A stretch of 40,200 nt of DNA, taken from NCBI GenBank assembly GCA_902571235.1, contig CACGBI010000011.1, positions 1-40,200 on the forward strand. Direction: 5' to 3'. A model generated the notes under the pieces. It saw only the letters and a program-made list of their open reading frames with translations, did no database searches and had not been told where the DNA came from. The position numbers were made by a program, and so were the translations under genes. How positions within the stretch are numbered: position 1 is the first letter of the stretch; each line of letters begins with the position of its first letter. This document shows positions 2,799 through 26,872 of this stretch, one piece after another. The DNA comes from an uncultured Pelagibacteraceae bacterium (GTDB lineage: Bacteria > Pseudomonadota > Alphaproteobacteria > Pelagibacterales > Pelagibacteraceae).

Positions 2799-4583
2799 TT
2801 ATCCATTTAAAGATTTTTGAGGTTTCATATCAGCTTTGTTTATACCAGCAACTTTAACAGGTTTTTTCATAGCATCTCTTCTAAAAGGTTCACCGAGTTC
2901 TTGATTAAGTATTACCTCAATAAAAGTGGTAATCCCTTTCTTTTGATCTTCACAAGATTGTTTTATAGCTGCAGTAGTTTCTTCCATTGTTCTGACTGTT
3001 ACACCTTTTAAACCACAAGCATCAGCAACTTTTGCATAACTTAATTCTGGATCAAGCTCTGTTCCAACAAAATTATCATCAAACCATAATGTAGTATTTC
3101 TTTTTTCTGCTCCCCACTGATAGTTTCTAAAAATTACCATTGAAATTGCTGGCCATTCTTCTCTTGCACATGAACTCATTTCATTCATGCTTATTCCAAA
3201 AGCTCCATCGCCAGCGAAACCTATTACCGGTGTATCTGGACAACCAATTTTTGCTCCAAGGATTGATGGAAATCCATAACCACATGGGCCAAATAATCCT
3301 GGTGCTAAATACTTTCTTCCTTTTTCAAAGGTTGGATAAGCATTTCCGATTGCACAATTATTTCCTATATCACTTGAAATAATTACATCATCAGGCATTC
3401 CAGCTTGTATTGCTCTCCATGCTTGTCTTGGAGACATTCTGTCAGAATCTCGCTCTCTTGCTTCTTTATTCCAAACTGTGCCTTCATCATCATCCTCATG
3501 ATCTAAACTTGAGAGTTTTTGTAACCAAGCTGATTTAGTTTGATGAATGATATCTTTTCTTTTTTGTCTATCAGTGTCCCCAGCAGTTGGTGAAAGTTGA
3601 GCTAACAATTGTTGCGCAACTAATTTTGCATCACCACATATTCCAACTGTAACTTTTTTAGTCAAACCTATTCTGTCAGAGTTCATGTCAACTTGAATGA
3701 TGCTCGCGTCTTTGGGCCAATAATCAATTCCATAACCTGGTAAAGTTGAAAAAGGATTTAATCTAGTTCCTAAAGCTAGAACAACATCAGCTTTTGAAAT
3801 TAACTCCATTCCAGCTTTAGATCCATTGTAGCCTAAAGGTCCTGCTGCTAATGGGTGACTTCCCGGAAAACTATCATTGTGTTGATAACCTGAGCACACA
3901 GGTGCATCTAATTTTTCTGCTAATTTTTTACAATCCTCAATAGCTCCACCAATAACAACACCTGCTCCAGATAGTATTACAGGAAATTTAGCTTTTGATA
4001 ATAAGTCTGCAGCTTTTTTAATTGCATCTACCCCACCAGCTTGTCTCTCTAATCTTACTATTGGTGGAAGATCAATATCAATTACTTGTGTCCAATAATC
4101 TCGAGGAATATTAATTTGAGCTGGAGCTGAACCTCTAATAGCTTTTTCAATAACTCTATTTAAAACTTCTGCCATTCTTGACGGATCTCTTACTTCTTCT
4201 TGATAACAAACCATGTCTTTAAATAAGTTCATCTGTTCAACTTCTTGAAAACCACCTTGACCCATTGTTTTGTTTGCAGCTTGGGGCGTTACTAAGAGTA
4301 AAGGTGTATGATTCCAATAAGCAGTTTTAATTGGTGTTACTAAACCAGTTATTCCAGGTCCATTTTGTGCAATTACCATAGACATTTTTCCTGTTGCTCT
4401 TGTGTAACCATCTGCAATTAATCCACCATTTGTTTCATGAGCTACATCCCAAAAAGTAATTCCTGCATCTGGAAAAATATCTGAGATAGGCATAAATGCT
4501 GATCCAATAATTCCAAAAGAATGTTCAATACCATGCATTTGTAAAACTTTTACAAAAGCTTCCTCAGTTGTCATTTTTGTCAT
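2799..4583 (-). CDS. xsc: sulfoacetaldehyde acetyltransferase
   Basis: This is a full-length 594-aa ThDP-dependent enzyme. Xsc converts sulfoacetaldehyde plus phosphate to acetyl phosphate and sulfite, the desulfonation step for taurine and isethionate. The catalytic Glu is in HE (residue 50). The central NAD/FAD-like fold is at about 190-330, and the ThDP/Mg motif GDG (458-460) is followed 26 residues later by Asn487. RNYQWGAEKRN and FGPCGYGFPS are typical of Xsc rather than acetolactate synthase. The first ATG is preferred because AAAGG lies 8 nt upstream. It is transcribed divergently from suyAB across a 116-bp region and is followed by the SGNH and FAD oxidoreductase genes. The phosphotransacetylase needed to use acetyl phosphate is not in the window. 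Confidence 0.93.
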   Translation of the reverse strand: MTKMTTEEAFVKVLQMHGIEHSFGIIGSAFMPISDIFPDAGITFWDVAHETNGGLIADGYTRATGKMSMVIAQNGPGITGLVTPIKTAYWNHTPLLLVTPQAANKTMGQGGFQEVEQMNLFKDMVCYQEEVRDPSRMAEVLNRVIEKAIRGSAPAQINIPRDYWTQVIDIDLPPIVRLERQAGGVDAIKKAADLLSKAKFPVILSGAGVVIGGAIEDCKKLAEKLDAPVCSGYQHNDSFPGSHPLAAGPLGYNGSKAGMELISKADVVLALGTRLNPFSTLPGYGIDYWPKDASIIQVDMNSDRIGLTKKVTVGICGDAKLVAQQLLAQLSPTAGDTDRQKRKDIIHQTKSAWLQKLSSLDHEDDDEGTVWNKEARERDSDRMSPRQAWRAIQAGMPDDVIISSDIGNNCAIGNAYPTFEKGRKYLAPGLFGPCGYGFPSILGAKIGCPDTPVIGFAGDGAFGISMNEMSSCAREEWPAISMVIFRNYQWGAEKRNTTLWFDDNFVGTELDPELSYAKVADACGLKGVTVRTMEETTAAIKQSCEDQKKGITTFIEVILNQELGEPFRRDAMKKPVKVAGINKADMKPQKSLNG

Positions 4584-4634
4584 TAGTAGGGCCTTTCTAA
4601 ACTAGTAAGTGAAATAATTTTTTAAAAACTATTT

Positions 4635-4662
4635 GTTAATTTTTGTGATTAATATATAAGAT
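4635..4662 (+). promoter_or_regulatory. candidate sigma-70 promoter for suyAB
   Basis: TTGTTA (4635-4640) and TATAAG (4657-4662) are separated by 16 bp, 37 bp before the suyA ATG and within the xsc/suyA divergent region. Such matches are common in AT-rich DNA, so support is modest. Confidence 0.3.
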
Positions 4663-4699
4663 TTTAAAAATTTCAAACAAACAAATCGACACTATTATT

Positions 4700-4984
4700 A
4701 TGGCTACAGACATCATTATTCATGACGAAAAAGACAATGTTGGGGTGGTTGTAATCGAGAAAATTACTCCAAAACAAGAGTGTAAATGCTGGATTATGGA
4801 AAATGACACTTCAACAAACATTCTATCAGTTGATGAAATACCTTTAGGTCATAAAATTGCTATGGTTGACCTTAAAGAGGGTGACACAATTCTTAAATAT
4901 GGACATGATATTGGTAAAGTGGTTAAATCAATTAAAAAAGGTGAACATGTTCACGTTCACAATGTTAAAACAAAGAAGTGGTAA
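4700..4984 (+). CDS. suyA: (2R)-sulfolactate sulfo-lyase, small subunit (SAF domain)
   Basis: This 94-aa protein consists of a single SAF-type beta-clip domain, the stand-alone counterpart of the N-terminus of UxaA altronate/galactarate dehydratases. LKYGHDIGK and the ending GEHVHVHNVKTKKW are characteristic. With SuyB it would eliminate sulfite from sulfolactate to give pyruvate. The gene is 3 bp from suyB, a translationally coupled pair. UxaA small subunits for sugar acids look alike. The sulfolactate call therefore rests on the adjacent xsc, the sulfite-handling apr genes and the anion exporter, not on a residue seen here. No clear Shine-Dalgarno precedes the start. Confidence 0.8.
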   Translation: MATDIIIHDEKDNVGVVVIEKITPKQECKCWIMENDTSTNILSVDEIPLGHKIAMVDLKEGDTILKYGHDIGKVVKSIKKGEHVHVHNVKTKKW

Positions 4985-8534: not shown

Positions 8535-8885
8535 TTAATATATGGTTGCTCCAAAGACCTTTATCACTCCATCCTCAACTCCAATAACAAGTCTTCCTAA
8601 GAACTCTCCTGGTATTTTTTTATTAGTTTGCTTGATGAGTATCGTTATATGCTCGCCTCTTCTAAGAGTACCAAAAGGTTCGTATGTTTCATTAAGATTA
8701 GTAATAAGTTCATTATTTGCCCATTGTTTTCCAAGCTCAACTTCATTTGCTCCAAACAACATTTGAGTAGAGAAATCTCGAGTAAAACCACCATAATCCT
8801 TTAGATTTGATGATTTAACTAAATTTTCCCAAAACGGTTTGCCTATTTCAAATATCTCTTCATCAGATTTAGCTAAAAGATCCAT
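8535..8885 (-). CDS. uncharacterised 116-aa protein downstream of aprA
   Basis: This is a soluble 116-aa protein with no signal peptide, membrane segment or cysteine. An N-terminal half with helical character (about 1-65, FEIGKPFWENLV and a WANN helix) is followed by a run of predicted strands (HITILIKQT, EFLGRLVIGVE, GVIKVFGATIY). The helix-then-curved-sheet order is what NTF2/SnoaL-like folds show, but no catalytic signature identifies a member, so the fold is a suggestion only. It lies 24 bp after aprA and before the 44-aa microprotein and TauE/SafE, in one transcription unit. A role in sulfite handling follows from position, not from sequence. Confidence 0.65.
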   Translation of the reverse strand: MDLLAKSDEEIFEIGKPFWENLVKSSNLKDYGGFTRDFSTQMLFGANEVELGKQWANNELITNLNETYEPFGTLRRGEHITILIKQTNKKIPGEFLGRLVIGVEDGVIKVFGATIY

Positions 8886-8909
8886 GAATGTTCTACTTTT
8901 TATATATAT

Positions 8910-10769
8910 TTAAGAGGCTTTCTTCTTCTCGTTCTCATCAACTATATGATAAACAGGCACTTTTTCCATGCTGAACTTACCAGTTTTAGGGTCTCTTCTT
9001 GACACTGTTAAACAGTGCCAATTATCATCGTCTAATTTCATGTGGTCACCTCTATAATAATATCCAGGCCAACGAGTTTCTTCCCTAAATAAAGTGTGTT
9101 CTGTTACACATTGAGAGGTCAAAGCTCTATGTTTTAGTTCCCAAGCTCTCATTAACTGGTGGTAGTCCTCAGCACCTACTTTTTCCAAATCCTCTTCTAA
9201 CCAAGCTAATAATTCTAAACCTCTTTTTAGCATATTTTCATTGGTCATATAATTTGTAGCAATTCCACCAACATATTCATCCATTATTCTTTGAAGTCTT
9301 TGTAAACCTTGAATAGGTGATATGTAGCTTGGAGAAACAGTTCCGCCAGTAATTTCATTTTGTGCAACAGTATATGTTTCTAGAGGTTTATAAACTGCAG
9401 TTTTAAAATCTTCACATTGTTTGTCAGAGACATTTATTCCATCAGCTTTTTTGTCCTCTATATATTTAACTGCTGCTTTAGCAGCTAATCTACCTTCGGT
9501 AAAAGAACCAGATGAAAATTTATGTGCACTTCCTCCAACTGTATCTCCTGCACCAAACAAACCATCAATAGTTAACATTCTGTTGTACCCCCAGAAATAT
9601 TCTGGTGGAGATAAATCTTCAGGTCCACTTACCCACGCACCTGAACATGTAGCATGTGAGCCCATTACGTATGGTTCAGATGTTGTTAATTCTGGATTTG
9701 TGTATTTTGGGTCAATATTTTGAGACGCCCAAACTACTGCTTGCCCAACAGTCATACCTAAAAAATTTTCCCAACCGACTGTTTCTAAATGTGGATCTTG
9801 GAAAGCTTCTGTTGTAACCATCTGTATTGGTCCACCACCCGCCATTGTTTCTTGAATGAACGCATGATTTCTCAAACAAGTTGGTGTTGGATGATGATCT
9901 ATATATTCACCAACTAACTCTTTTGTTTGTTCATACCATTTCTTTTCATAATTCTCACCATTTGCATTTTGTGTATACGTTTTTAAATGTAAAAAGTATG
10001 CACCTACTGGACCATATCCATCTTTAAATCTACATAATACAATTCTATTTTCCATTTGAGTCATTTTTGCACCAGCTGCTATAGGTAAAGCATAAGCTGA
10101 GCCATTACTCCAAGGTGCATACCAAGTTCTACCCATACCTTCACCAACAGCCCTAGGTTTGAAGATGTGTGATGCACCTCCCGCTGCAACTATTACAGTT
10201 TTTGCTCTAAATACATGAAAATCTCCTGTTCTCATGTTGAATCCCACCGCTCCACCAATTCTATTTTCTTGAGCTTCATCCATTAATAAATGGGTGATCA
10301 TTATTCTATTATAAATTTTATCTGCAGATTTTTTAGCAGCTTCTGCAACGATTGGTTTATAGCTTTCACCATGTATCATGATCTGCCATTTTCCCTCTCT
10401 TAAATATCTTCCAGTTTTTTCATTTTTCATCATAGGGAGTCCCCATTCATCAAACATATGAACAGTTGAGTCTACGTGACGAGCCATATCATAACCTAAA
10501 TCTTCTCTAACCATTCCCATTAAATCATTTCTTGCGTATCTAACATGATCTTCTGGTTGGTTTTCATCCCACTGCATTCCCATATAACAGTTAATCGCAT
10601 ACAAACCTTGTGCTACAGCTCCACTTCTATCAATGTTAGCTTTTTCAACACAAACAATTTTTAAATCTCTGCCCCAGTGTCTAGCTTCAAAAGTAGCACC
10701 AGTCCCAGCCATTCCTCCACCAACAACTAATACATCACACTCTTCAAAATGAGTTTTATGTTTAGCCAT
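8910..10769 (-). CDS. aprA: adenylylsulfate reductase, alpha subunit
   Basis: This 619-aa flavoprotein subunit belongs to the dissimilatory-type APS reductase. The FAD fold starts at VLVVGGGMAGTGA (about residues 13-25). The middle holds HIFKPRAVGEGMGRTWYAPW. The later GYNRMLTIDGLFGAGDTVGGSAHKFSSGSF is the second FAD-binding region. The C-terminal Arg/Trp-rich segment (LTVSRRDPKTGK) matches AprA. AprBA interconverts APS and sulfite plus AMP; beside sulfonate desulfonation genes and without dsr genes, sulfite oxidation is the likely direction. The ATG overlaps the aprB stop by 1 bp (TAATG), giving 1:1 coupling. Genes of the SAR11 lineage are known to carry aprBA. No ATP sulfurylase lies in the window. 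Confidence 0.95.
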   Translation of the reverse strand: MAKHKTHFEECDVLVVGGGMAGTGATFEARHWGRDLKIVCVEKANIDRSGAVAQGLYAINCYMGMQWDENQPEDHVRYARNDLMGMVREDLGYDMARHVDSTVHMFDEWGLPMMKNEKTGRYLREGKWQIMIHGESYKPIVAEAAKKSADKIYNRIMITHLLMDEAQENRIGGAVGFNMRTGDFHVFRAKTVIVAAGGASHIFKPRAVGEGMGRTWYAPWSNGSAYALPIAAGAKMTQMENRIVLCRFKDGYGPVGAYFLHLKTYTQNANGENYEKKWYEQTKELVGEYIDHHPTPTCLRNHAFIQETMAGGGPIQMVTTEAFQDPHLETVGWENFLGMTVGQAVVWASQNIDPKYTNPELTTSEPYVMGSHATCSGAWVSGPEDLSPPEYFWGYNRMLTIDGLFGAGDTVGGSAHKFSSGSFTEGRLAAKAAVKYIEDKKADGINVSDKQCEDFKTAVYKPLETYTVAQNEITGGTVSPSYISPIQGLQRLQRIMDEYVGGIATNYMTNENMLKRGLELLAWLEEDLEKVGAEDYHQLMRAWELKHRALTSQCVTEHTLFREETRWPGYYYRGDHMKLDDDNWHCLTVSRRDPKTGKFSMEKVPVYHIVDENEKKKAS

Positions 10770-17575: not shown

Positions 17576-18283
17576 ATGGAACAAATCAACAAGGTTAAAT
17601 CCATAAGTATCTGGGTTTTTATTATACCTTTCGTTGCAGTTAATGCCTGTCTGATAATCACTACTCAACTCCATTTTTTAATAGAGGATCAATATAGAAT
17701 TTTCATGCCATTCCCTTACATTGATGGGGGCGTGTCCATTAGCAGAACAGCAAGATATTTTCCGACTTATTTAATTTTTAAACCAGCTATGTTTTTAACT
17801 TCATTTCTTTTAATCATCTATTGGCTTAATAATAGAAAAATAATCAAACAATTTGATGAGTCTAATAAATATAGAGATAAAATAGTTTATTTTGGTATTG
17901 CCTCAGCAATAGCACTTATAATCCACTCAATTTTTCTTGGAGTAAAATTTGATAACGATTTCTATAAATTATTTAGAAGAATAATTATGTTCGTATTCAT
18001 AATATTTGAAATAGTTGCTCAAGCATATTTAGTTTTAGCTTTGTACTCATTAAAGAATAAAATTTCAAAATTTATTAATTTAAATGTTTTAAAATTAAAA
18101 TTATTTTTAGTAAGTATTCTTATTATTGTAGCTGTTATAAGTATTCCAATTATTAGTTTACCGGGTGATGATTTTTATGGAATAAATTTAAAATATCTTA
18201 AACATGCTTTAGAGTGGGATTATTTTGTAGGCGTAATATCTTTTTATTTGTTAACTTTTTTTATGTGGAAAAAAATTAATTAA
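17576..18283 (+). CDS. FRAG1/DRAM/Sfk1-like six-span membrane protein
   Basis: This 235-aa integral membrane protein has about six membrane segments (near residues 11-32, 62-85, 105-124, 135-160, 175-195 and 212-230). The first extracytoplasmic loop contains YIDGGVSISRTARYFPT and the last segment begins HALEWDYFVGVISFYLLTFF. This pattern is that of the FRAG1/DRAM/Sfk1 family, mostly known from eukaryotes (PGAP2 in GPI-anchor remodelling, DRAM in autophagy). Bacterial members are uncharacterised. The assignment is by motif memory, so moderate. The gene follows the basic peptide by 4 bp, and its end overlaps the VTC gene on the other strand by 8 bp. Confidence 0.6.
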   Translation: MEQINKVKSISIWVFIIPFVAVNACLIITTQLHFLIEDQYRIFMPFPYIDGGVSISRTARYFPTYLIFKPAMFLTSFLLIIYWLNNRKIIKQFDESNKYRDKIVYFGIASAIALIIHSIFLGVKFDNDFYKLFRRIIMFVFIIFEIVAQAYLVLALYSLKNKISKFINLNVLKLKLFLVSILIIVAVISIPIISLPGDDFYGINLKYLKHALEWDYFVGVISFYLLTFFMWKKIN

Positions 18284-18926
18284 TCAAACCCGAGTCCTCT
18301 AAAATATTGAAAGATTGAATATATTTAGAAAATTTTTTAGCTCTAAAATTAAAATTTTTTTTATAATAAAAATCTCTAAAAGAAGACTCGTATTTTGGTG
18401 AAAATTTAAATTCTAAGATGGTCTCATTAAGATTCAAATTAAATGACAAATTATTAATCGGATTTACTATTAAATTTTGGTCAATAGTCGCTCTATATTT
18501 TTTATTATCAGAGATCCAATAAGATCTTAAATAATTAACGTTTAAAACAAATCGATAATTAAATGAATTAAATTTGTTTTTTACCTCATAAAAGTATTTC
18601 TTTAAGTCTCTTACAATGTAATCTTTATTTATTTCAGCATTTATTTCTTTTATAACTTTATTAACCTGAAAGTTTTGTTTAGCTTTTTCCTCTAAATAAA
18701 TATTTCCTAAATCATTATTGTACCACCTAAACCTTATCTTTTTTCTCTTGCTTACACCGTTAATATTGTCCCTTGCAAAATCAAAATTTAAAGTATCTAA
18801 ATAAACTGAGCTTATTTGTCTTGGTTGAAAAATTTCTGAAAATCCATTTTTTAATAGTGATAATTTTAGATTATTTTCTTTTCCTTTGCCAAAAATAAAT
18901 TTTTTTTCTATTCTTAAATCACTCAT
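18276..18926 (-). CDS. VTC-domain protein (CYTH/polyphosphate-polymerase-like)
   Basis: This 216-aa protein is a single VTC domain, a beta tunnel lined with basic and acidic residues. Motifs in order are RIEKKFIF (about 5-12), SVYLDTLNFDFA (about 40-51), KRKKIRFRWYN (about 60-70), YLEEKAKQN, RFVLNVNYLRSYW, KYRATIDQNL and TILEFKFSPKY near the end. In yeast Vtc4 equivalent residues bind triphosphate and make polyphosphate. Stand-alone bacterial members are often paired with DUF4956 and CotH proteins, as here. It starts 1 bp after the CotH-like gene. Whether it makes polyphosphate, or uses nucleotide or a phosphate chain for another purpose, is unknown. Confidence 0.85.
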   Translation of the reverse strand: MSDLRIEKKFIFGKGKENNLKLSLLKNGFSEIFQPRQISSVYLDTLNFDFARDNINGVSKRKKIRFRWYNNDLGNIYLEEKAKQNFQVNKVIKEINAEINKDYIVRDLKKYFYEVKNKFNSFNYRFVLNVNYLRSYWISDNKKYRATIDQNLIVNPINNLSFNLNLNETILEFKFSPKYESSFRDFYYKKNFNFRAKKFSKYIQSFNILEDSGLIN

Positions 18927-18927
18927 A

Positions 18928-21252
18928 TCAATAAAGGAATTCGTTAATAATTTTGTTATCTACATAATCTGTTAAAGAAATATTATTTTTTACTATAAAA
19001 TTATTTTTTCCAACCAAATAACTAAAAGGTTTTTTTCCAATTGAATCTTTTATTTCTAATTTAGCACTTTCATACTCTTTTTTTTTATTAAAAATAGCTA
19101 CATCTAATTCGTTATCCTGTAAAATATACTCAGATATTTTTAAATTTGATCCATCTTTAACTGCTATGCCTAATTTTGAATTTTTAAAATCTACTTTTCT
19201 AATAGTTCCAATTGAACTTTCTCCAAAACTTAAACCCTTATCTTTAATTGAAAATCCCTTTAAATTCATTCCTTCTACGTTTGCTGATGATACATCTAAG
19301 CAATCGTTATTAATATTTTTACAAAATATTCCATCAAAATTTACAGTTCCAAAATCTATATCAATGCCATCAGCAAAACTATTTGAAATTTCTAAATTAT
19401 TTATAATACTTTTTGAAGATATAATATTTATTGAGTCTTCACTATTTGAGGAAAAAATTTTAACATTTTCAATTTGATTTTCTGAATTTATAAGATTGAT
19501 ACCAGAATGCAAAATCTTATCTTTCACTTTTGGATAAGATAAATTATTAAAAATCACATTTTTAAGTTTATAGTTACCATTACTAAGTATAAGTGATCCT
19601 ACTTTATTTTCACTTGAAACTATTATTGGATTATCTTTTGTACCTTCAAAAAAAATTGATCCATTTGATTGAATTATAAAATCATCTTTAAAATTTATTT
19701 TAATACCATTTTTAATTTTAAGAGTTTCGTCTTTAGGTAAATAAAAATTTGAATTAATATCCAAATTCTCTGTTAAATAATAGAATTCATTTATTTTTTT
19801 AATTTTGTTAAGTTGTAAAATATTTTTTGAATTTAAATCATCAATATTTGATATTTGATTTTTAACATCATATCTATTTAAATCGTTTAATCTTGACTGA
19901 ATATAATTAGCTCGGTTTCTTAAATAATTTTGGTCATAAATGTAAGGTCCTATTCCTTTACGAAAAATTTTATCATATTTAGATGTTTCACTTAAAAATT
20001 GATCATTGTAAAAAATAATTTCAGATGAATTTTCTTCAATAAATTTATCTATGAAATTACTATTTGAAATTTTTTTTAGGAAGTTTTTGTAAGAATTTAG
20101 AAATTGATCATTGTTTAAAAATTTCAAAAACCACTCTTTTTCACTACAAATATAATTGCAGTTTGTATTATCTTCGTCAAATAAATCTAATAAAATAAAA
20201 TCATTAAATAAATTTGAATTATAATGACCATCGAAACCTATTGGTTCAAAATATGCTGTTACTGGATTGTAATATAATTTTACACTTTTTGGGATTGACC
20301 CATGATAATTTTGAGTTAAATCAATTATTGCAAAATATAAAGCCCACTTATTCAGGTCAAAATGTTTACTAAAATCAGAATTTTTTTGTTTTATTTCCTC
20401 TAGTTTTGATAATGCACTATTTGTTAAATCTGGAAAATTAGATGACCAATATTCTTTTGAATATAAATCGTGTTCAATATTTGGATATATTTCACCTTTA
20501 GTCTCTTCTAAGCCAAATATTGGGCCATTTCTTTTTTTATTTCTTTCTACTAATTCTTTAGAAAAACCCTCTTCAACGGCGTAAATACCTTGATCGGTAT
20601 CATTAATTAATAAATTAATAAAAAAATATTTAAGTGAGATAAGATTATTAAATTCTAAAAATTTATGAAATATAAATTCATAAATATAATTTCTAGTAAT
20701 AGGTTTTTGAACAGAAAATTCCTCTAATCCCCAAATTCTATCTTCCCCTCTTAGATCAATCTTATAAGATGTTTGATCATTTCTGTAAAAATGTAATGCT
20801 CTATCACCTTTTACTCTTAATTTAATATTGTAATTATTGTTACGAAAATTTATTGATGCTCTAGAATAAGTTTCAACATCCTGATTTAAACCCTCAAGTT
20901 TATTTTTTCTTTGTAATTCTAAATTATATAAATTTTTTTGATCAATATTAATTATTACATTCTCTAATTTATTGCCAAAAATTATAAATTTTAAAGATTT
21001 AATCTCATTTTTTAAATAATCATTTAATTTAAAAAAACTAAAACCTAAATGTTTATCTAAAATTACATTATCTATTTTTTTAAATAATGCTAACGGTTTG
21101 TAACTATGATACATCCCACTATTGAAATAGTAGATAATTGTTAATAAAAACAATATTAATGTTATGGATCCAAGAAAAAAAATAATCCTTGAAATCAATT
21201 TTTTTAACAATTGAATAATTGGAAAATAATTTTTTTTTGGTTTAATTATCAC
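18928..21252 (-). CDS. membrane-anchored CotH-kinase-like protein with beta-helix domain
   Basis: This large protein (774 aa) has an N-terminal membrane anchor at about 14-46. A CotH-like domain spans about 95-440. It contains RVKGDRALHF, SYKIDL, GLEEFSVQKPITRNY, the FFINLLINDTDQGIYAVEEGFSKELVER segment and, in the catalytic area, DLTQNYHG and FEPIGFDGHYN. A right-handed beta-helix-like repeat region follows at about 500-720. It consists of short Asn/Ser-rich strands such as GSIFFEGTKDNP, LEISNSFADGIDIDF and CLDVSSANVEG. CotH proteins are atypical kinases that phosphorylate secreted proteins. The domain should lie in the periplasm. It is between DUF4956 (18 bp upstream) and VTC (1 bp downstream). 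Kinase activity is inferred only. Confidence 0.75.
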   Translation of the reverse strand: MIIKPKKNYFPIIQLLKKLISRIIFFLGSITLILFLLTIIYYFNSGMYHSYKPLALFKKIDNVILDKHLGFSFFKLNDYLKNEIKSLKFIIFGNKLENVIINIDQKNLYNLELQRKNKLEGLNQDVETYSRASINFRNNNYNIKLRVKGDRALHFYRNDQTSYKIDLRGEDRIWGLEEFSVQKPITRNYIYEFIFHKFLEFNNLISLKYFFINLLINDTDQGIYAVEEGFSKELVERNKKRNGPIFGLEETKGEIYPNIEHDLYSKEYWSSNFPDLTNSALSKLEEIKQKNSDFSKHFDLNKWALYFAIIDLTQNYHGSIPKSVKLYYNPVTAYFEPIGFDGHYNSNLFNDFILLDLFDEDNTNCNYICSEKEWFLKFLNNDQFLNSYKNFLKKISNSNFIDKFIEENSSEIIFYNDQFLSETSKYDKIFRKGIGPYIYDQNYLRNRANYIQSRLNDLNRYDVKNQISNIDDLNSKNILQLNKIKKINEFYYLTENLDINSNFYLPKDETLKIKNGIKINFKDDFIIQSNGSIFFEGTKDNPIIVSSENKVGSLILSNGNYKLKNVIFNNLSYPKVKDKILHSGINLINSENQIENVKIFSSNSEDSINIISSKSIINNLEISNSFADGIDIDFGTVNFDGIFCKNINNDCLDVSSANVEGMNLKGFSIKDKGLSFGESSIGTIRKVDFKNSKLGIAVKDGSNLKISEYILQDNELDVAIFNKKKEYESAKLEIKDSIGKKPFSYLVGKNNFIVKNNISLTDYVDNKIINEFLY

Positions 21253-21270
21253 TTTTAGATTTTATCTAAA

Positions 21271-21981
21271 TCACTCAAATGCACCTGACTTTGAATATAT
21301 AGATATATTTATATTTTCATCACAGTATTTTGGGATTTCTTTTAGTAATGCCATCTTTTTATCCTCATCAATTTCGTACCAAAAAATATAATTATGTTGA
21401 GTTTTATCAAAATTTGCTGATTTTAATTTTAAATATTTAAAGTTATTTTTTAATTCCTCTATAATTGTATCAATATTTTTTGCATCTTTAGAAATATTAA
21501 TGGAAATTATATTTGTATCTGATCCAAAATTACCGTCTTTATTTTTATTATCTTTAAAAATATTTCTAATTATTAAGAAAAATACAATTATTAAAGTGGA
21601 TATTATTGAAAGTAAAAATTGATTAGCTCCATTTGCTAGACCAATAGCTATTACAAAAAATAAATATACTAATTCTTCTGGTTCTTTAATTGCAGCTCTA
21701 AACCTTACAATTGATAAAGCACCAACTAGTCCAAGTGACAACGCTAATGAAAATTTTACCACAGTAATTACTAATGTTGTAATAATAGCTAGTGGAATAA
21801 ATGTATCAGAAAAATAGTCTTTATCATTTAATGCTCTACCAACTTTTAAATAAGTTATCTTGACTATAAGTGAAAGTAAAAGCGATAAAAGAAGTGCAAT
21901 AAAAAAATTGCCGAAATTTATTTCAATGTTAGAATTTAAAAAAAAGTTCTCAAGATTTTGTTTATCTATAATCTCATTCAT
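21271..21981 (-). CDS. DUF4956-family membrane protein
   Basis: This 236-aa protein has three to four membrane segments in the first 140 residues and a cytoplasmic domain of about 90 residues. The hallmark is GLVGALSIVRFRAAIKEPEELVYLFFVIAIGLANGANQ (residues about 84-121), near-invariant in DUF4956. The C-terminal domain (NIISINISKDAKN to the end) has an alternating strand/helix pattern like an ACT/ferredoxin fold. DUF4956 genes commonly sit beside VTC and CotH genes, as here. It starts 37 bp after mnmA and is followed by the CotH-like gene after 18 bp. Function is unknown. Confidence 0.88.
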   Translation of the reverse strand: MNEIIDKQNLENFFLNSNIEINFGNFFIALLLSLLLSLIVKITYLKVGRALNDKDYFSDTFIPLAIITTLVITVVKFSLALSLGLVGALSIVRFRAAIKEPEELVYLFFVIAIGLANGANQFLLSIISTLIIVFFLIIRNIFKDNKNKDGNFGSDTNIISINISKDAKNIDTIIEELKNNFKYLKLKSANFDKTQHNYIFWYEIDEDKKMALLKEIPKYCDENINISIYSKSGAFE

Positions 21982-22018: not shown

Positions 22019-23134
22019 TCATATAATCCATCCACCACCTAAAACTTTTAAACCAAAGTTGTCTTCATTATAAAAAACACAAGCTTGGCCAGGAGAAATT
22101 CCATCTTCAAAATCTTTTAAAATAACTTCAGCAAAATTCTTTTCTTTTAAGTTTACTTTAGCTTCTAATAATTTTCCAGTAGATCTTACTTTGACTAAAA
22201 TATCATTTGATAATTGTTCTTCACTTACTAGTAAATTAAGATTATTAATATTTATATTTTTCTTTCCAAGATTTTCTCTTGGTCCAACAATAATTTCGTT
22301 TTTATCAGAATTAATTTTTAAAACATAAAGTGGTTCTACGTCTGAAACCTTAATTCCTTTTCTCTGACCAATAGTAAAATTTATAATACCATCGTGAACA
22401 CCGATAACTTTTCCATTTAAATTTTTAATATTTCCTTTTTTAAAAGAGTCAGGTCGAAACTTTCTTATAACAGATGAATAATCACCATTAGGCACAAAGC
22501 ATATATCTTGACTATCTGGTTTCTCAGCTACATTAAGCTCTAATTTTTTTGCGATAGATCTTGTTTCATCTTTAAGCATTCCTCCAAGTGGAAATCTTAA
22601 ATAGTTTAATTGCTCTCTTGTTGTATTAAATAAAAAGTAACTTTGGTCTCTATTTTCATCAATTGCACGATACATATTTGTTTCTGAACCGTAAGTAATA
22701 CTTTTTACATAGTGGCCAGTGATTAATGCATCGGCTTTTAATTCTTTTGAAACTTCAAACAAATCTCTAAATTTTACAGTTTGATTACATTGAACGCATG
22801 GTATAGGAGTTTCGCCCTTCAAATAACTTTCTACAAAGTTATCGATCACACCATGTTTAAATTTACTTTGATAGTATAAAATTTTATGTTCAATATTTAA
22901 TTTCTGAGCTACTCTTTTTGCATCCATAATATCTTGACCTGAGCAACATTGTTTGGATGATGCAACTTCTTTACCATCATCATAAAGTTTTAGAGTTATT
23001 CCTATTACATTATAACCTTCTTTTTTCATCATGCCTGCAACAGTCGAGGAATCGACGCCTCCAGACATAGCCACAACAACAGTTGTATCAGATGGTTTTT
23101 TTTTGAGACCTATTGAGTTTAAATCATCGTTCAT
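22019..23134 (-). CDS. mnmA: tRNA 2-thiouridine(34) synthase
   Basis: MnmA adds sulfur to U34 of tRNAs for Lys, Glu and Gln. The pyrophosphatase loop is [13 protein letters not shown] near the N-terminus. The two catalytic cysteines are in [11 protein letters not shown] and [19 protein letters not shown] and the C-terminal beta-barrel with SPGQACVFY complete the family. The start is set at the ATG at 23134 (371 aa, usual length about 370). A longer frame from 23212 adds 26 residues unlike the family and would overlap the divergent DUF3553 start. It may be co-transcribed with the DUF4956-CotH-VTC genes downstream (37-bp gap). Confidence 0.93.
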
Positions 23135-23174
23135 TAACTGGTATTTATACTTATTTCTAATATAAGTTAAATAA

Positions 23175-23351
23175 ATGATATTAGATTTTGAACCAGGTGA
23201 CAAAGTAATCAATCCTTTAGCTCAAGAATGGGGGGTTGGACAAGTCCAATCAATAATTAAAGAAAAAGTAACAGTTAATTTTCAAAATGTTGGAAAAAAG
23301 GTAATTAACTCAAATTACATAGAACTGAAAAAAATAGATGACAGAAATTAA
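23175..23351 (+). CDS. DUF3553-family small protein
   Basis: This 58-aa protein runs from ATG at 23175 to TAA at 23349-23351. The sequence [23 protein letters not shown] followed by [14 protein letters not shown] is the DUF3553 pattern (FxPGDxVxxPxxxxWGxGQVQS and VxVxFEHxGKxxI), an SH3/KOW-like small beta domain common in alphaproteobacteria. Function is unknown; the fold and size suggest binding to a nucleic acid or protein partner. Its end overlaps the start of the CysQ-family gene by 14 bp, so the two are translated together. It is divergent from mnmA, 40 bp away. Confidence 0.8.
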
Positions 23352-24834: not shown

Positions 24835-25308
24835 ATGATCGAACAAATTTATAGCTACTTTACAACTGAAATGCTTTACATGTGGGTAAATCTTGGAGTG
24901 TTGCCATTTTGGTTATTAATCATATTTTTCCCCCAATCTCATCTTTGTAGATATCTTGCTACATCAATATTGCCTATTTTTTTATTAAGTGGAGCCTATG
25001 TATTTGTTTTATACAAAGCTTATTTAGGATCATTTGATTTTAATAATAATTTTACTCTTTACTTGGGCATAAGTTATATATCTGAGTTATTTAGAGATGA
25101 TTATTATCTATTAATGTTTTGGATTCATTTCGTATCAATTAATTTATTTATTGGTGGCTGGATACTTAAAGATGCTCAGAAGCTTTTGGTTAACAAAATT
25201 TTGTTAGCGTTCCCTCTTATAATAACATATTTAATTGGCCCGTTAGGTATATTCATATATTGGATTATTAGAATTTTTTATGCAAAAAGTCTAAATTTAT
25301 ATGACTAG
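24835..25308 (+). CDS. ABA4-like (DUF4281) membrane protein
   Basis: This 157-aa protein has four membrane segments (about 15-35, 40-60, 95-115, 125-148). The segments FWIHFVSINLFIGGWILKDAQ and LIGPLGIFIYWIIR match the ABA4-like family, in which plant ABA4 is needed for neoxanthin synthesis. Bacterial members have no established reaction, though some have been linked to carotenoid chemistry. No carotenoid genes are next to it. The stop overlaps the start of the DsbA-like isomerase by 8 bp, so the genes are coupled. Confidence 0.75.
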   Translation: MIEQIYSYFTTEMLYMWVNLGVLPFWLLIIFFPQSHLCRYLATSILPIFLLSGAYVFVLYKAYLGSFDFNNNFTLYLGISYISELFRDDYYLLMFWIHFVSINLFIGGWILKDAQKLLVNKILLAFPLIITYLIGPLGIFIYWIIRIFYAKSLNLYD

Positions 25309-25891: not shown

Positions 25892-26872
25892 ATGAAAAAA
25901 CTTTTTATAAGATTAGCTAAAATTTTGGGTTATGAAATTATTGATCAAAATAATTTTATTTCACCGACGTTAAAAAAGGAATTAAATGAAGATCTATCAA
26001 ATTTTAATGATAGCTCAATTATTTTACCACTTGGTGAAGTAAAAATTACAAGAAAAATTAAATCATTATTAATTGTTTTCAGAACAAATACTTCTGTTGA
26101 GATATGGGACCAAAACAAGAAAAGATTATTTGAATATCCAAAAATAGAATATGCAACCAGATCATTAAATTCTTTAATAAAATCAATTAAATTTTTAAGA
26201 CAAAAATTACCTGAAATAAATATTAAATTAATTATCTTAGATGATCATTCAAATAATGAAAACCTTGAAAAAATCAAAAAAATATCTGAACAAGAAAAAA
26301 GTTCGGAAATAATTTCATTAGATCATGATAAATATAAATCTGTAATCTTAAAACAAAAATCAGCAGAAACGTTTTCAAATCTTGCAAGTTTATTAAATTC
26401 TTTTGAAATTGGAAAAGAGCTTGGGGAAGATTTAGTTTTTTTTGTTGAAGATGATTATTTACATTTTGAAACAATGTTAGAAGAAATGATTTCCTCTTAC
26501 CAAAGAATATCTTCTCAATTAGATAAAGATATTTTTATGTGCCCTTCAGACTACCCTTATCTATATATGGGTAATGAAAAAACAAATGTTTTAATAGGTA
26601 GTAAACGTCACTGGAGAACAATAGATAAAACTTTATGTACCTTTTTAACTTCTAAAACATTAATTAATAAATACTGGGATAATTTTAAAAAAAACTGTGA
26701 AAATAGACATGATCCTTTTGAAAAATATCTAAATGAAATCTATCAAAAGGAGATTTGCATTTCTCCTCTTAAAAGTCTTTCTCTTCATTTAACAAATATT
26801 AATTCAAGCTACGGATTAGCACCATTTATTAATTACAAAGAATTGTGGGAAGAAAATAAGATTAATCATTAA
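25892..26872 (+). CDS. glycosyltransferase family 2-like protein
   Basis: This 326-aa soluble protein begins with an unrecognised 50-residue segment and then has a GT-A-like core. LIVFRTNTS and LNSLIKSIKFL are followed by KLIILDDHSN (D-D nucleotide-binding strand). FFVEDDYLHFETMLEEM provides a DxD-like EDDY, and CEN..HDPFEKYLNE comes further on. No membrane segment is seen. The donor and acceptor sugars cannot be inferred. It is the last gene of the ABA4-isomerase run, ending just before the amt terminator. Confidence 0.6.
   Translation: MKKLFIRLAKILGYEIIDQNNFISPTLKKELNEDLSNFNDSSIILPLGEVKITRKIKSLLIVFRTNTSVEIWDQNKKRLFEYPKIEYATRSLNSLIKSIKFLRQKLPEINIKLIILDDHSNNENLEKIKKISEQEKSSEIISLDHDKYKSVILKQKSAETFSNLASLLNSFEIGKELGEDLVFFVEDDYLHFETMLEEMISSYQRISSQLDKDIFMCPSDYPYLYMGNEKTNVLIGSKRHWRTIDKTLCTFLTSKTLINKYWDNFKKNCENRHDPFEKYLNEIYQKEICISPLKSLSLHLTNINSSYGLAPFINYKELWEENKINH

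Follow-up and report, generated by a model that had tools for sequence, protein, structure and literature searches.

The subject of this report is a set of three adjacent genes on the minus strand of contig CACGBI010000011.1 (GenBank assembly GCA_902571235.1) from an uncultured Pelagibacteraceae bacterium; the window, that is, the whole stretch of DNA that was analysed, is one entire contig of 40,200 base pairs (bp) of an 897-kb assembly that is 72.55% complete. The genes encode, in this order, a DUF4956 membrane protein, a CotH-fold protein with a right-handed beta-helix, and a VTC-domain protein. We read this trio, tentatively and with a probability of about 0.38, as an envelope phosphate-transfer module in which the VTC protein would make a phosphate polymer, DUF4956 would provide for its passage, the CotH/helix protein would use it, and a pyrophosphatase would clear the pyrophosphate (PPi). 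The trio itself is already known; what is new is the variant of the CotH/helix protein that carries a histidine in place of a catalytic aspartate, and the link of the module to an exported pyrophosphatase.

The DUF4956 gene (21271-21981; 236 residues) yields 61 bits with PF16316 (cut-off 30.6), and the VTC gene (18276-18926; 216 residues, no membrane segment seen, predicted to be a cytosolic polyphosphate polymerase) 68.6 bits with PF09359 (cut-off 23). Between them lies the gene for the CotH/helix protein (18928-21252; 774 residues, GTG start), which is assigned through PF08757 (32.5 bits) and through both profile and fold similarity to the Bacillus CotH structure 5jd9. Its CotH-fold domain spans residues 94-459 (19876-20973), and its beta-helix, recognized from the predicted structure and from stacked conserved residues, spans about residues 471-768 (18949-19842). 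According to the list of open reading frames (ORFs), the intergenic gaps measure 18 and 1 bp. The preliminary description of this DNA had made the same three domain calls and had stressed the tight linkage of the genes; both statements hold.

In the scheme that we propose, the cytosolic VTC protein, whose aligned catalytic residues are those of Vtc4 and whose activity is presumed from them, would first make polyphosphate from adenosine triphosphate (ATP), as yeast Vtc4 does. The DUF4956 protein, which has a conserved basic loop predicted to be cytosolic, would then take the chain from the VTC protein and bring it across the inner membrane, thereby taking the role that the membrane portion has in yeast VTC. 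In a third step the anchored, outward-facing CotH/helix protein would use the exported polyphosphate, either as a donor or as the group that is attached, on an envelope target; its fold and anchor are observed features, while its location and chemistry are predicted. This target is probably a glycan, as is suggested by the nearest folds of the modelled beta-helix, which include alginate epimerases and polysaccharide enzymes. Finally, an exported pyrophosphatase, where present, would hydrolyse leftover PPi or short chains and in this way pull the reaction forward; its linkage to the module is observed in relatives, and its substrate is conjectural. The window locus carries the genes of the first three steps only. 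A narrower version, which we consider rather unlikely, makes the His-type CotH a polyphosphate-powered, periplasmic kinase-like enzyme that acts on an envelope glycan, with the exported pyrophosphatase removing the last, unusable PPi; since no ATP is expected outside the membrane, the VTC and DUF4956 proteins would push out a phosphate polymer as phosphoryl donor. If true, the system would be an outward-turned bacterial counterpart of the acidocalcisome phosphate pathway.

That phosphate chemistry is run outside the cell membrane is suggested by the pyrophosphatases found with the module in relatives, which strengthen a link that the preliminary description had already drawn. Our main genome set comprised 101 genomes, the bacterium's own and 100 others of the same genus or order, many of them incomplete. 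A Pfam search found a family-I inorganic pyrophosphatase (PF00719) in four of these genomes, and all four copies lie inside the trio's cluster: locus L059 has the gene before DUF4956, L061 and L068 have it between the CotH and VTC genes, and in L064 it forms a C-terminal fusion with CotH. The chance that all four would fall among the 15 module genomes is 3.3e-4, with their position in the cluster not counted. Further copies adjoin the module in the SAR11 loci L078 and L083, where they are the sole PF00719 enzymes found in the respective genomes, and in the Flavobacteriales loci L101 and L148, whose genomes hold a second such enzyme elsewhere. Since L059 and L078 are close relatives, the SAR11 cases represent about five lineages, and the varying position of the gene within the cluster argues for selection on the association. 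The profiles for pyrophosphatases and phosphoesterases that we used in addition were seeded with module neighbours; the PF00719 search of the 101 genomes alone escapes this bias.

Seven of these eight module pyrophosphatases possess a signal- or lipoprotein-like N-terminus, as judged by eye and by hydrophobicity, and the eighth is the one fused to an exported protein. All eight keep 13 family-I residues whose roles in the active site we take to be the canonical ones. The L061 enzyme matches acidocalcisomal pyrophosphatases in the PDB along with many further enzymes of family I, a number of them with a better rank. The possibility that the exported enzyme is the ordinary pyrophosphatase of the cell was rejected: a membrane-bound, proton-linked pyrophosphatase (H+-PPase) was detected in 78 of the 101 genomes, among them three of the four with the exported enzyme (G011, G036 and G042); in the fourth, G041 (77% complete), none was found.

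An exported pyrophosphatase in a marine oligotroph would also be in keeping with phosphorus scavenging, in which exported hydrolases and the CotH/helix protein bind and degrade dissolved polyphosphate or PPi from seawater and the DUF4956 and VTC proteins take part in import. The trio, however, also occurs in phyla only distantly related to SAR11 and in an isolate from the rumen (L154), its VTC protein is predicted to be cytosolic with residues mostly of the polymerase type, and a pyrophosphatase accompanies only four of the 15 SAR11 modules; we therefore consider scavenging very improbable.

A second type of putatively exported phosphohydrolase is represented by a calcineurin-like phosphoesterase family, which is encoded at most two genes away from the module in 17 loci and directly adjacent on the same strand in 12 of them, with gaps of up to 86 bp in 11 loci and of 384 bp in L117. 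Examples, each with the first motif 'GHxYG', are found in L093 (8716-9855), L103 (7048-7911) and L148 (13024-13914). When the two seeds are set aside, 15 of 15 matches in the loci lie near the module; from the gene counts, and subject to the seed bias, all 17 would come to lie no more than two genes away by chance with a probability of 7.7e-8. The 16 proteins with a complete start all have an N-terminus that resembles a signal peptide or membrane anchor, the protein from L087 being cut. The corresponding profile (A9) matched none of the 101 genomes, in a search for which there was no positive control. A pyrophosphatase or phosphoesterase of these kinds is present in 23 of 94 module loci; these loci include three pairs with identical DUF4956 proteins, two of which are the same stretch taken from two collections. 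In L135, the gene between DUF4956 and CotH (3965-4864) encodes a CYTH-domain protein whose start resembles a signal peptide and whose C-terminus carries a membrane anchor.

The VTC protein retains mostly residues expected of a polymerase. In an alignment of 58 sequences, R5, E7, K9, Y42, G57, K63, R65, R67, Y69, E79, K81, K90, R134, R145, T147, D149, E172, K174, S200 and K201 are invariant, and the family profile matches yeast Vtc4 with E-values of 1.6e-13 and 2.2e-13. The profile alignment places K9 on K200, R65 and R67 on R264 and R266, K81 on K281, and R134 and R145 on the arginines of the Vtc4 motifs YNR and VRISLD, while the later motifs, with E172, S200 and K201, fall on the segments with E426 and K458, a part of Vtc4 whose alignment is weak (4.5 bits). 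The Vtc4 numbers given here are presumed to be those of the chain in which K200 comes into register. The catalytic residues of Vtc4 are thus found unchanged at the aligned positions of the window protein and are invariant in the 58 rows, so that conservation of the tunnel residues, on which the preliminary description had made its proposal depend, is indeed observed. R5 and K174, both basic, sit at two places that are presumably occupied by acidic-patch glutamates in hydrolytic tunnel enzymes, if our mapping of the ExExK motif is right. In the consulted sections of one report, Vtc4 lacks this acidic patch, which in the hydrolytic enzymes serves to hold a second metal (PMC4641920); in those of another, a R264A/R266A/E426N variant of Vtc4 is impaired (PMC9911596). 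The balance of these residues favours a role of the VTC protein as a polymerase.

The module was also considered as a replacement for the polyphosphate kinase PPK1 (PF02503), and this was rejected: PPK1 is present in 32 of the 101 genomes and in three of the 15 module genomes (G036, G042, G048), and the module is hence neither a constant substitute for PPK1 nor its partner. On contig G042:C15, PPK1 is read as two pieces, one of them with an internal TAG, and the gene is possibly broken or affected by a sequencing fault.

The DUF4956 protein is modelled (mean predicted local distance difference test score, pLDDT, 85) with five hydrophobic helices (residues 23-47, 61-75, 79-95, 101-118 and 122-148), the third of which may be re-entrant, followed by a ferredoxin/ACT-like C-terminal domain (residues 157-229). 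An alignment of 65 sequences reveals the conserved core ALSLGxxGALSIVRFRxxIKEPEEL, which includes R93, R95 and K99. Mean net charges over these rows are -1.28 for the N-terminus, +2.86 for loop 47-60, +2.00 for loop 92-101 and +0.08 for loop 118-122; the two strongly basic loops fit a predicted topology with the N-terminus outside, the C-terminus inside and five crossings. In five loci from Chloroflexota and an acidimicrobial genome (L096, L122, L126, L137, L149), DUF4956 is extended at its N-terminus by about 240-320 residues. On visual inspection, this extension opens with a signal peptide in four of the five loci, the L137 protein having extra residues ahead of it, which supports an outward DUF4956 N-terminus. 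Two of the extensions were scanned with Pfam, and PF06439 was above its cut-off in L096 and below it in L137, a domain assignment that hints at a connection of DUF4956 to glycans. As to an identity with MgtC, the only match stayed below the threshold (16.8 bits; cut-off 31.4).

These features leave room for another explanation, in which the trio is an accessory of glycan synthesis: DUF4956, weakly MgtC-like and of ACT type, would together with VTC sense the phosphate or nucleotide state and tune an envelope polysaccharide, the CotH/helix protein would carry out ordinary chemistry, and no polyphosphate would be exported. The N-terminal PF06439 domain of the L096 DUF4956 protein speaks for it, as does the presence of glycosyltransferase, Wzy_C and MBOAT families among 90 scanned neighbours of the module. 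Pel loci and the effects of mutations therein, as given in the sections consulted of two papers, are likewise in its favour (PMC7112168, PMC12345266). The same proposal leaves the exported pyrophosphatase in the cluster unexplained, and no glycan-synthesis cluster was detected in the window in the 29 scanned of its 42 ORFs of at least 80 residues, a glycosyltransferase-2 match below the cut-off (25892-26872) aside. On balance we hold it to be fairly unlikely. The 90 neighbours (set A8) were drawn from 137 operon neighbours, with the known SAR11 pyrophosphatases and most ilv/leu genes left out; the two pyrophosphatases counted in this set consequently do not represent a frequency.

The assignment of the CotH-fold domain rests on several comparisons. 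PF08757 scored 32.5 bits (cut-off 23.8) in the genome profile search, and hmmscan returned no Pfam match; the family profile matches the solved Bacillus CotH 5jd9 with E-values of 1.5e-8 and 2.4e-15, and the predicted structure (mean pLDDT 86) does so with a Foldseek E-value of 5.2e-13 and a Z-score of 27.3 over 326 residues. From an N-terminal membrane anchor at about residues 11-44, the protein is predicted to face outward, in agreement with the export proposed in the preliminary description. Across the genome set, PF08757 was detected in seven of 101 genomes, versus 14 for the CotH protein when searched with the window sequence; some of the 14 matches lie for the most part in the helix half, to which the CotH half was then added by alignment.

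The active site departs from that of the Bacillus kinase. In the sections consulted on Bacillus subtilis CotH, D228 and D251 are catalytic and a D228Q variant is inactive (PMC7821199). The alignment to 5jd9, onto which this numbering was carried by the spacing of 23 residues, places D228 on His317 and D251 on Asp341 of the window protein. We tallied 81 CotH rows, 58 of the helix type and 23 without a detected helix. At the Asp228 place the helix type has His in 51 of 58 rows (Glu in three, Ala in two, Trp and Ser in one each) and Asp in none; of the 23 rows in which no helix was detected, 11 have Asp there, seven have His and five are unaligned. Five of these seven helix-less His rows run into the end of their locus; those of L077 and L153 seem complete, the former (8709-10358) being a SAR11 CotH of 549 residues with no beta-helix detected and His at the Asp228 place. 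The Asp251 place holds Asp in 47 of the 58 helix-type rows and Glu in three, with eight unaligned. A separate alignment (A4) had 37 rows, namely the window protein, that of L075 and 35 of the 44 helix-type CotH proteins longer than 800 residues; it left out L089, L103, L105, L110, L113, L124, L133, L147 and L151, five of which have another residue at position 317. The invariance of H317 in A4 is therefore an artefact of selection, and the count of 51 out of 58, which is not deduplicated, is used here instead. Alignments A5 and A6 contain, beside the window sequence, 64 of the 68 ORFs of the length range and 57 of 58 ORFs, respectively.

The His at the Asp228 place across the helix-type rows sets apart a His-type subfamily of CotH, almost all of whose members have a helix, and the kinase role that the preliminary description had given to CotH is not supported in its ordinary form. 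Judging from these residues, the His-type CotH may be an altered kinase, another kind of transferase, or inactive. The closest solved folds of the beta-helix are those of alginate epimerases (4nk6/4nk8; Z about 26, 8% identity) along with many other beta-helix proteins, a likeness of fold only. Conserved residues are stacked along the helix at a spacing of about 22 (D606, D628, D650, D671; N609, D631, D653, S675), and D633, K672, E678, K699 and D700 are conserved as well.

If the CotH/helix protein were inactive, export of polyphosphate could itself be the product: the VTC and DUF4956 proteins would release the polymer to the surface, CotH/helix would be a scaffold that holds or primes the chain, and the phosphohydrolases would trim it. 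The intact catalytic residues of VTC, the loss of the catalytic Asp from CotH and the exported phosphohydrolases beside the module all fit such a role. An inert scaffold would have no need, though, of the conservation seen at Asp341 and other CotH residues, and the conserved acidic ladder on the helix would be unusual on a surface that has to bind a polyanion, except by way of a metal; we regard this explanation as unlikely.

The alternative of another transferase takes the form of a CotH/helix protein that transfers a nucleotide, as SelO does, or splits nucleoside triphosphates to PPi outside the membrane, with the pyrophosphatase removing the PPi and the VTC and DUF4956 proteins supplying or regulating the nucleotide pool. 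It would accommodate the lost catalytic Asp and the PPi-removing partner, and the solved CotH holds adenosine monophosphate (AMP) and Mg2+ according to the title of the 5jda entry. It leaves the conserved polymerase residues of VTC unused, and we know of no source of periplasmic ATP; we hence judge it improbable.

Several observations weigh against the reading of the trio as an envelope phosphate-transfer module. The replacement of the catalytic Asp by His in the helix-type CotH proteins makes phosphate transfer by CotH uncertain. In DUF4956, neither loop 76-78 (net charge +0.95, predicted outside) nor the stretch 146-158 (-0.06, predicted inside) lends support to the topology. DUF4956 also lacks a relative in the PDB by sequence and a fold match under an E-value of 1e-3, so that a pore is only a guess. 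In VTC, E7 is presumably one of the acidic-patch glutamates, retained here and Thr in Vtc4, if the mapping is correct. The pyrophosphatase is missing from 11 of the 15 SAR11 modules, including that of the window, neither PF00719 nor a membrane H+-PPase was found in the window's incomplete genome assembly, and two genomes that carry the module encode, elsewhere, exported pyrophosphatases of the same tree group: G457 and, weakly, G455. Members of the phosphoesterase family have neither the Asp of the first motif nor the usual last GHxH, motifs that we take to be standard for calcineurin-like enzymes, and their activity is therefore doubtful. For the polyphosphate-polymerase (VTC) mutant 1593 of Streptococcus intermedius, finally, no change is reported in the sections consulted of PMC12345266.

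The arrangement of the trio is beyond chance. Among the 101 genomes, VTC is found in 15, DUF4956 in 14 and the CotH protein in 14, with 14 genomes common to VTC and DUF4956; missing pieces fall at contig ends (the contig of G033 starts inside CotH, and the G019 locus is split over two contigs). All 15 module genomes, the window's own included, belong to the window's genus, and among genomes that are at least 90% complete VTC is present in three of 22. The recurrence of the trio in bacteria, as the preliminary description had it, is thus borne out, and the emphasis on retention in a minimal genome was misplaced: 86 of the 101 genomes gave no match to any part of the module, the assembly that holds the window is the incomplete one introduced above, and the trio has the character of a patchy accessory module. 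In a phylum-wide sample of 349 genomes, DUF4956 and VTC were each found in eight (seven of the latter above the cut-off), with seven in common; the exceptions are G350, with DUF4956 alone, and G266, with a sub-threshold VTC alone. Of 586 confirmed stretches fetched with DUF4956, the best 80 were examined; they contained a DUF4956 ORF in 73, VTC in 60, CotH in 61 and all three in 48, counts that are lowered where a gene is truncated by the end of its contig or masked by an overlapping ORF. Module loci also occur in Bacteroidota, Planctomycetota, Omnitrophota, Chloroflexota, Marinamargulisbacteria and Kordiimonadaceae. Across the three genes, protein distances are correlated (r of 0.81, 0.67 and 0.57 over 49 loci; none of 999 permutations reached any of these values), with host kinship not removed.

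Within SAR11 the module lies beside mnmA in the window, L075 and L077, and between ilvC and leuA in L061, L062, L080, L129 and the split locus L071/L072; the ilvC side is also seen in L060, L081 and L084, and further sites exist. By virtue of these several sites, the module behaves as an accessory unit. A Kordiimonadaceae contig (L095, 7216-16428) carries two facing modules that are separated by a group-1 glycosyltransferase gene, and one of the two extends to the locus end. In L063 (14580-20000; G027) the order is DUF4956-VTC-CotH, and the gene for an autotransporter that contains a C-type lectin domain lies just upstream.

In the window, mnmA (22019-23212) lies upstream of DUF4956 on the same strand at a distance of 37 bp, and L075 and L077 share this side of the trio. 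Among the matches listed, the closest DUF4956 protein (74% identity) is that of the SAR11 isolate AG-325-B10 (L075). On the other side, the end of VTC overlaps by 8 bp with a convergent downstream gene for a membrane protein that resembles Frag1 weakly (26.3 bits; cut-off 30.3). A promoter scan around the trio was uninformative (48 sites versus 47.4 expected) and showed no terminator. Also near the trio, the gene at 25892-26872, that of the sub-threshold glycosyltransferase-2 match, encodes a protein of unassigned role, and the one at 24835-25308 an ABA4-like membrane protein (PF14108) in this SAR11 genome. A phage origin and a role in anti-phage defence were rejected, as the three proteins had no PHROGs match at an E-value of 0.001 and no PADLOC match at 0.01.

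In the sections consulted of PMC7112168, Gram-positive Pel loci are adjoined by CotH, poly-phosphate polymerase and DUF4956 genes. The preliminary description was thus right that the trio has no established function, and it overlooked that the trio had already been described in this setting (PMC7112168, PMC12345266). As far as the sections of PMC12345266 at hand go, all four accessory mutants of S. intermedius still aggregate and make Pel; the mutant in the MgtC/ACT-type gene (1592) makes more Pel and the CotH mutant (1594) less, and each loses more than half of its aggregation in one medium. The MgtC/ACT protein, with four membrane segments and an intracellular ACT domain, is inferred to be a DUF4956 homologue, a name that those sections of PMC12345266 do not use. 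The authors state that beyond the Pel locus they did not observe this synteny. The window trio resembles these accessory genes in that the same three families stand side by side, the CotH protein is exported, and the membrane protein has an ACT-type C-terminus; it differs in that no pel-type family, of the kind in pelDEADAFG loci, was found among the 29 scanned window ORFs, which cover the trio's immediate neighbours, in the beta-helix and the substituted His of the SAR11 CotH, and in the exported pyrophosphatase of its relatives. With no Pel genes beside it in the window, the trio is not tied to Pel, and the CotH, VTC and DUF4956 genes of Pel loci gain a biochemical hypothesis. Literature searches on CotH with polyphosphate, VTC with CotH, an extracytoplasmic polyphosphate donor, and pyrophosphatase with SAR11 or polyphosphate returned titles and abstract openings in which no mechanism for the module is proposed. 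For phosphorylation outside the membrane, where no ATP is expected, a widespread trio accompanied in several lineages by an exported pyrophosphatase offers a concrete and testable answer.

With the spore-coat kinase CotH of Bacillus (5jd9/5jda) the window protein shares the fold (Z 27.3) and the Asp251 equivalent, and it differs from it in the His at the Asp228 place, the membrane anchor and the fusion to a beta-helix; it is like the periplasmic alginate epimerase AlgG and related enzymes in the fold of that helix only. Unlike the components of the yeast VTC complex (Vtc1/3/4), the 216-residue VTC protein has neither an SPX domain nor a membrane segment, its partner is DUF4956 in place of Vtc1, and a CotH/helix protein is added. 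It does contain the Vtc4-type tunnel domain, and the module possibly follows the same logic as the yeast complex together with the acidocalcisome pyrophosphatase, namely synthesis in the cytosol, passage through the membrane and a pyrophosphatase on the luminal side.

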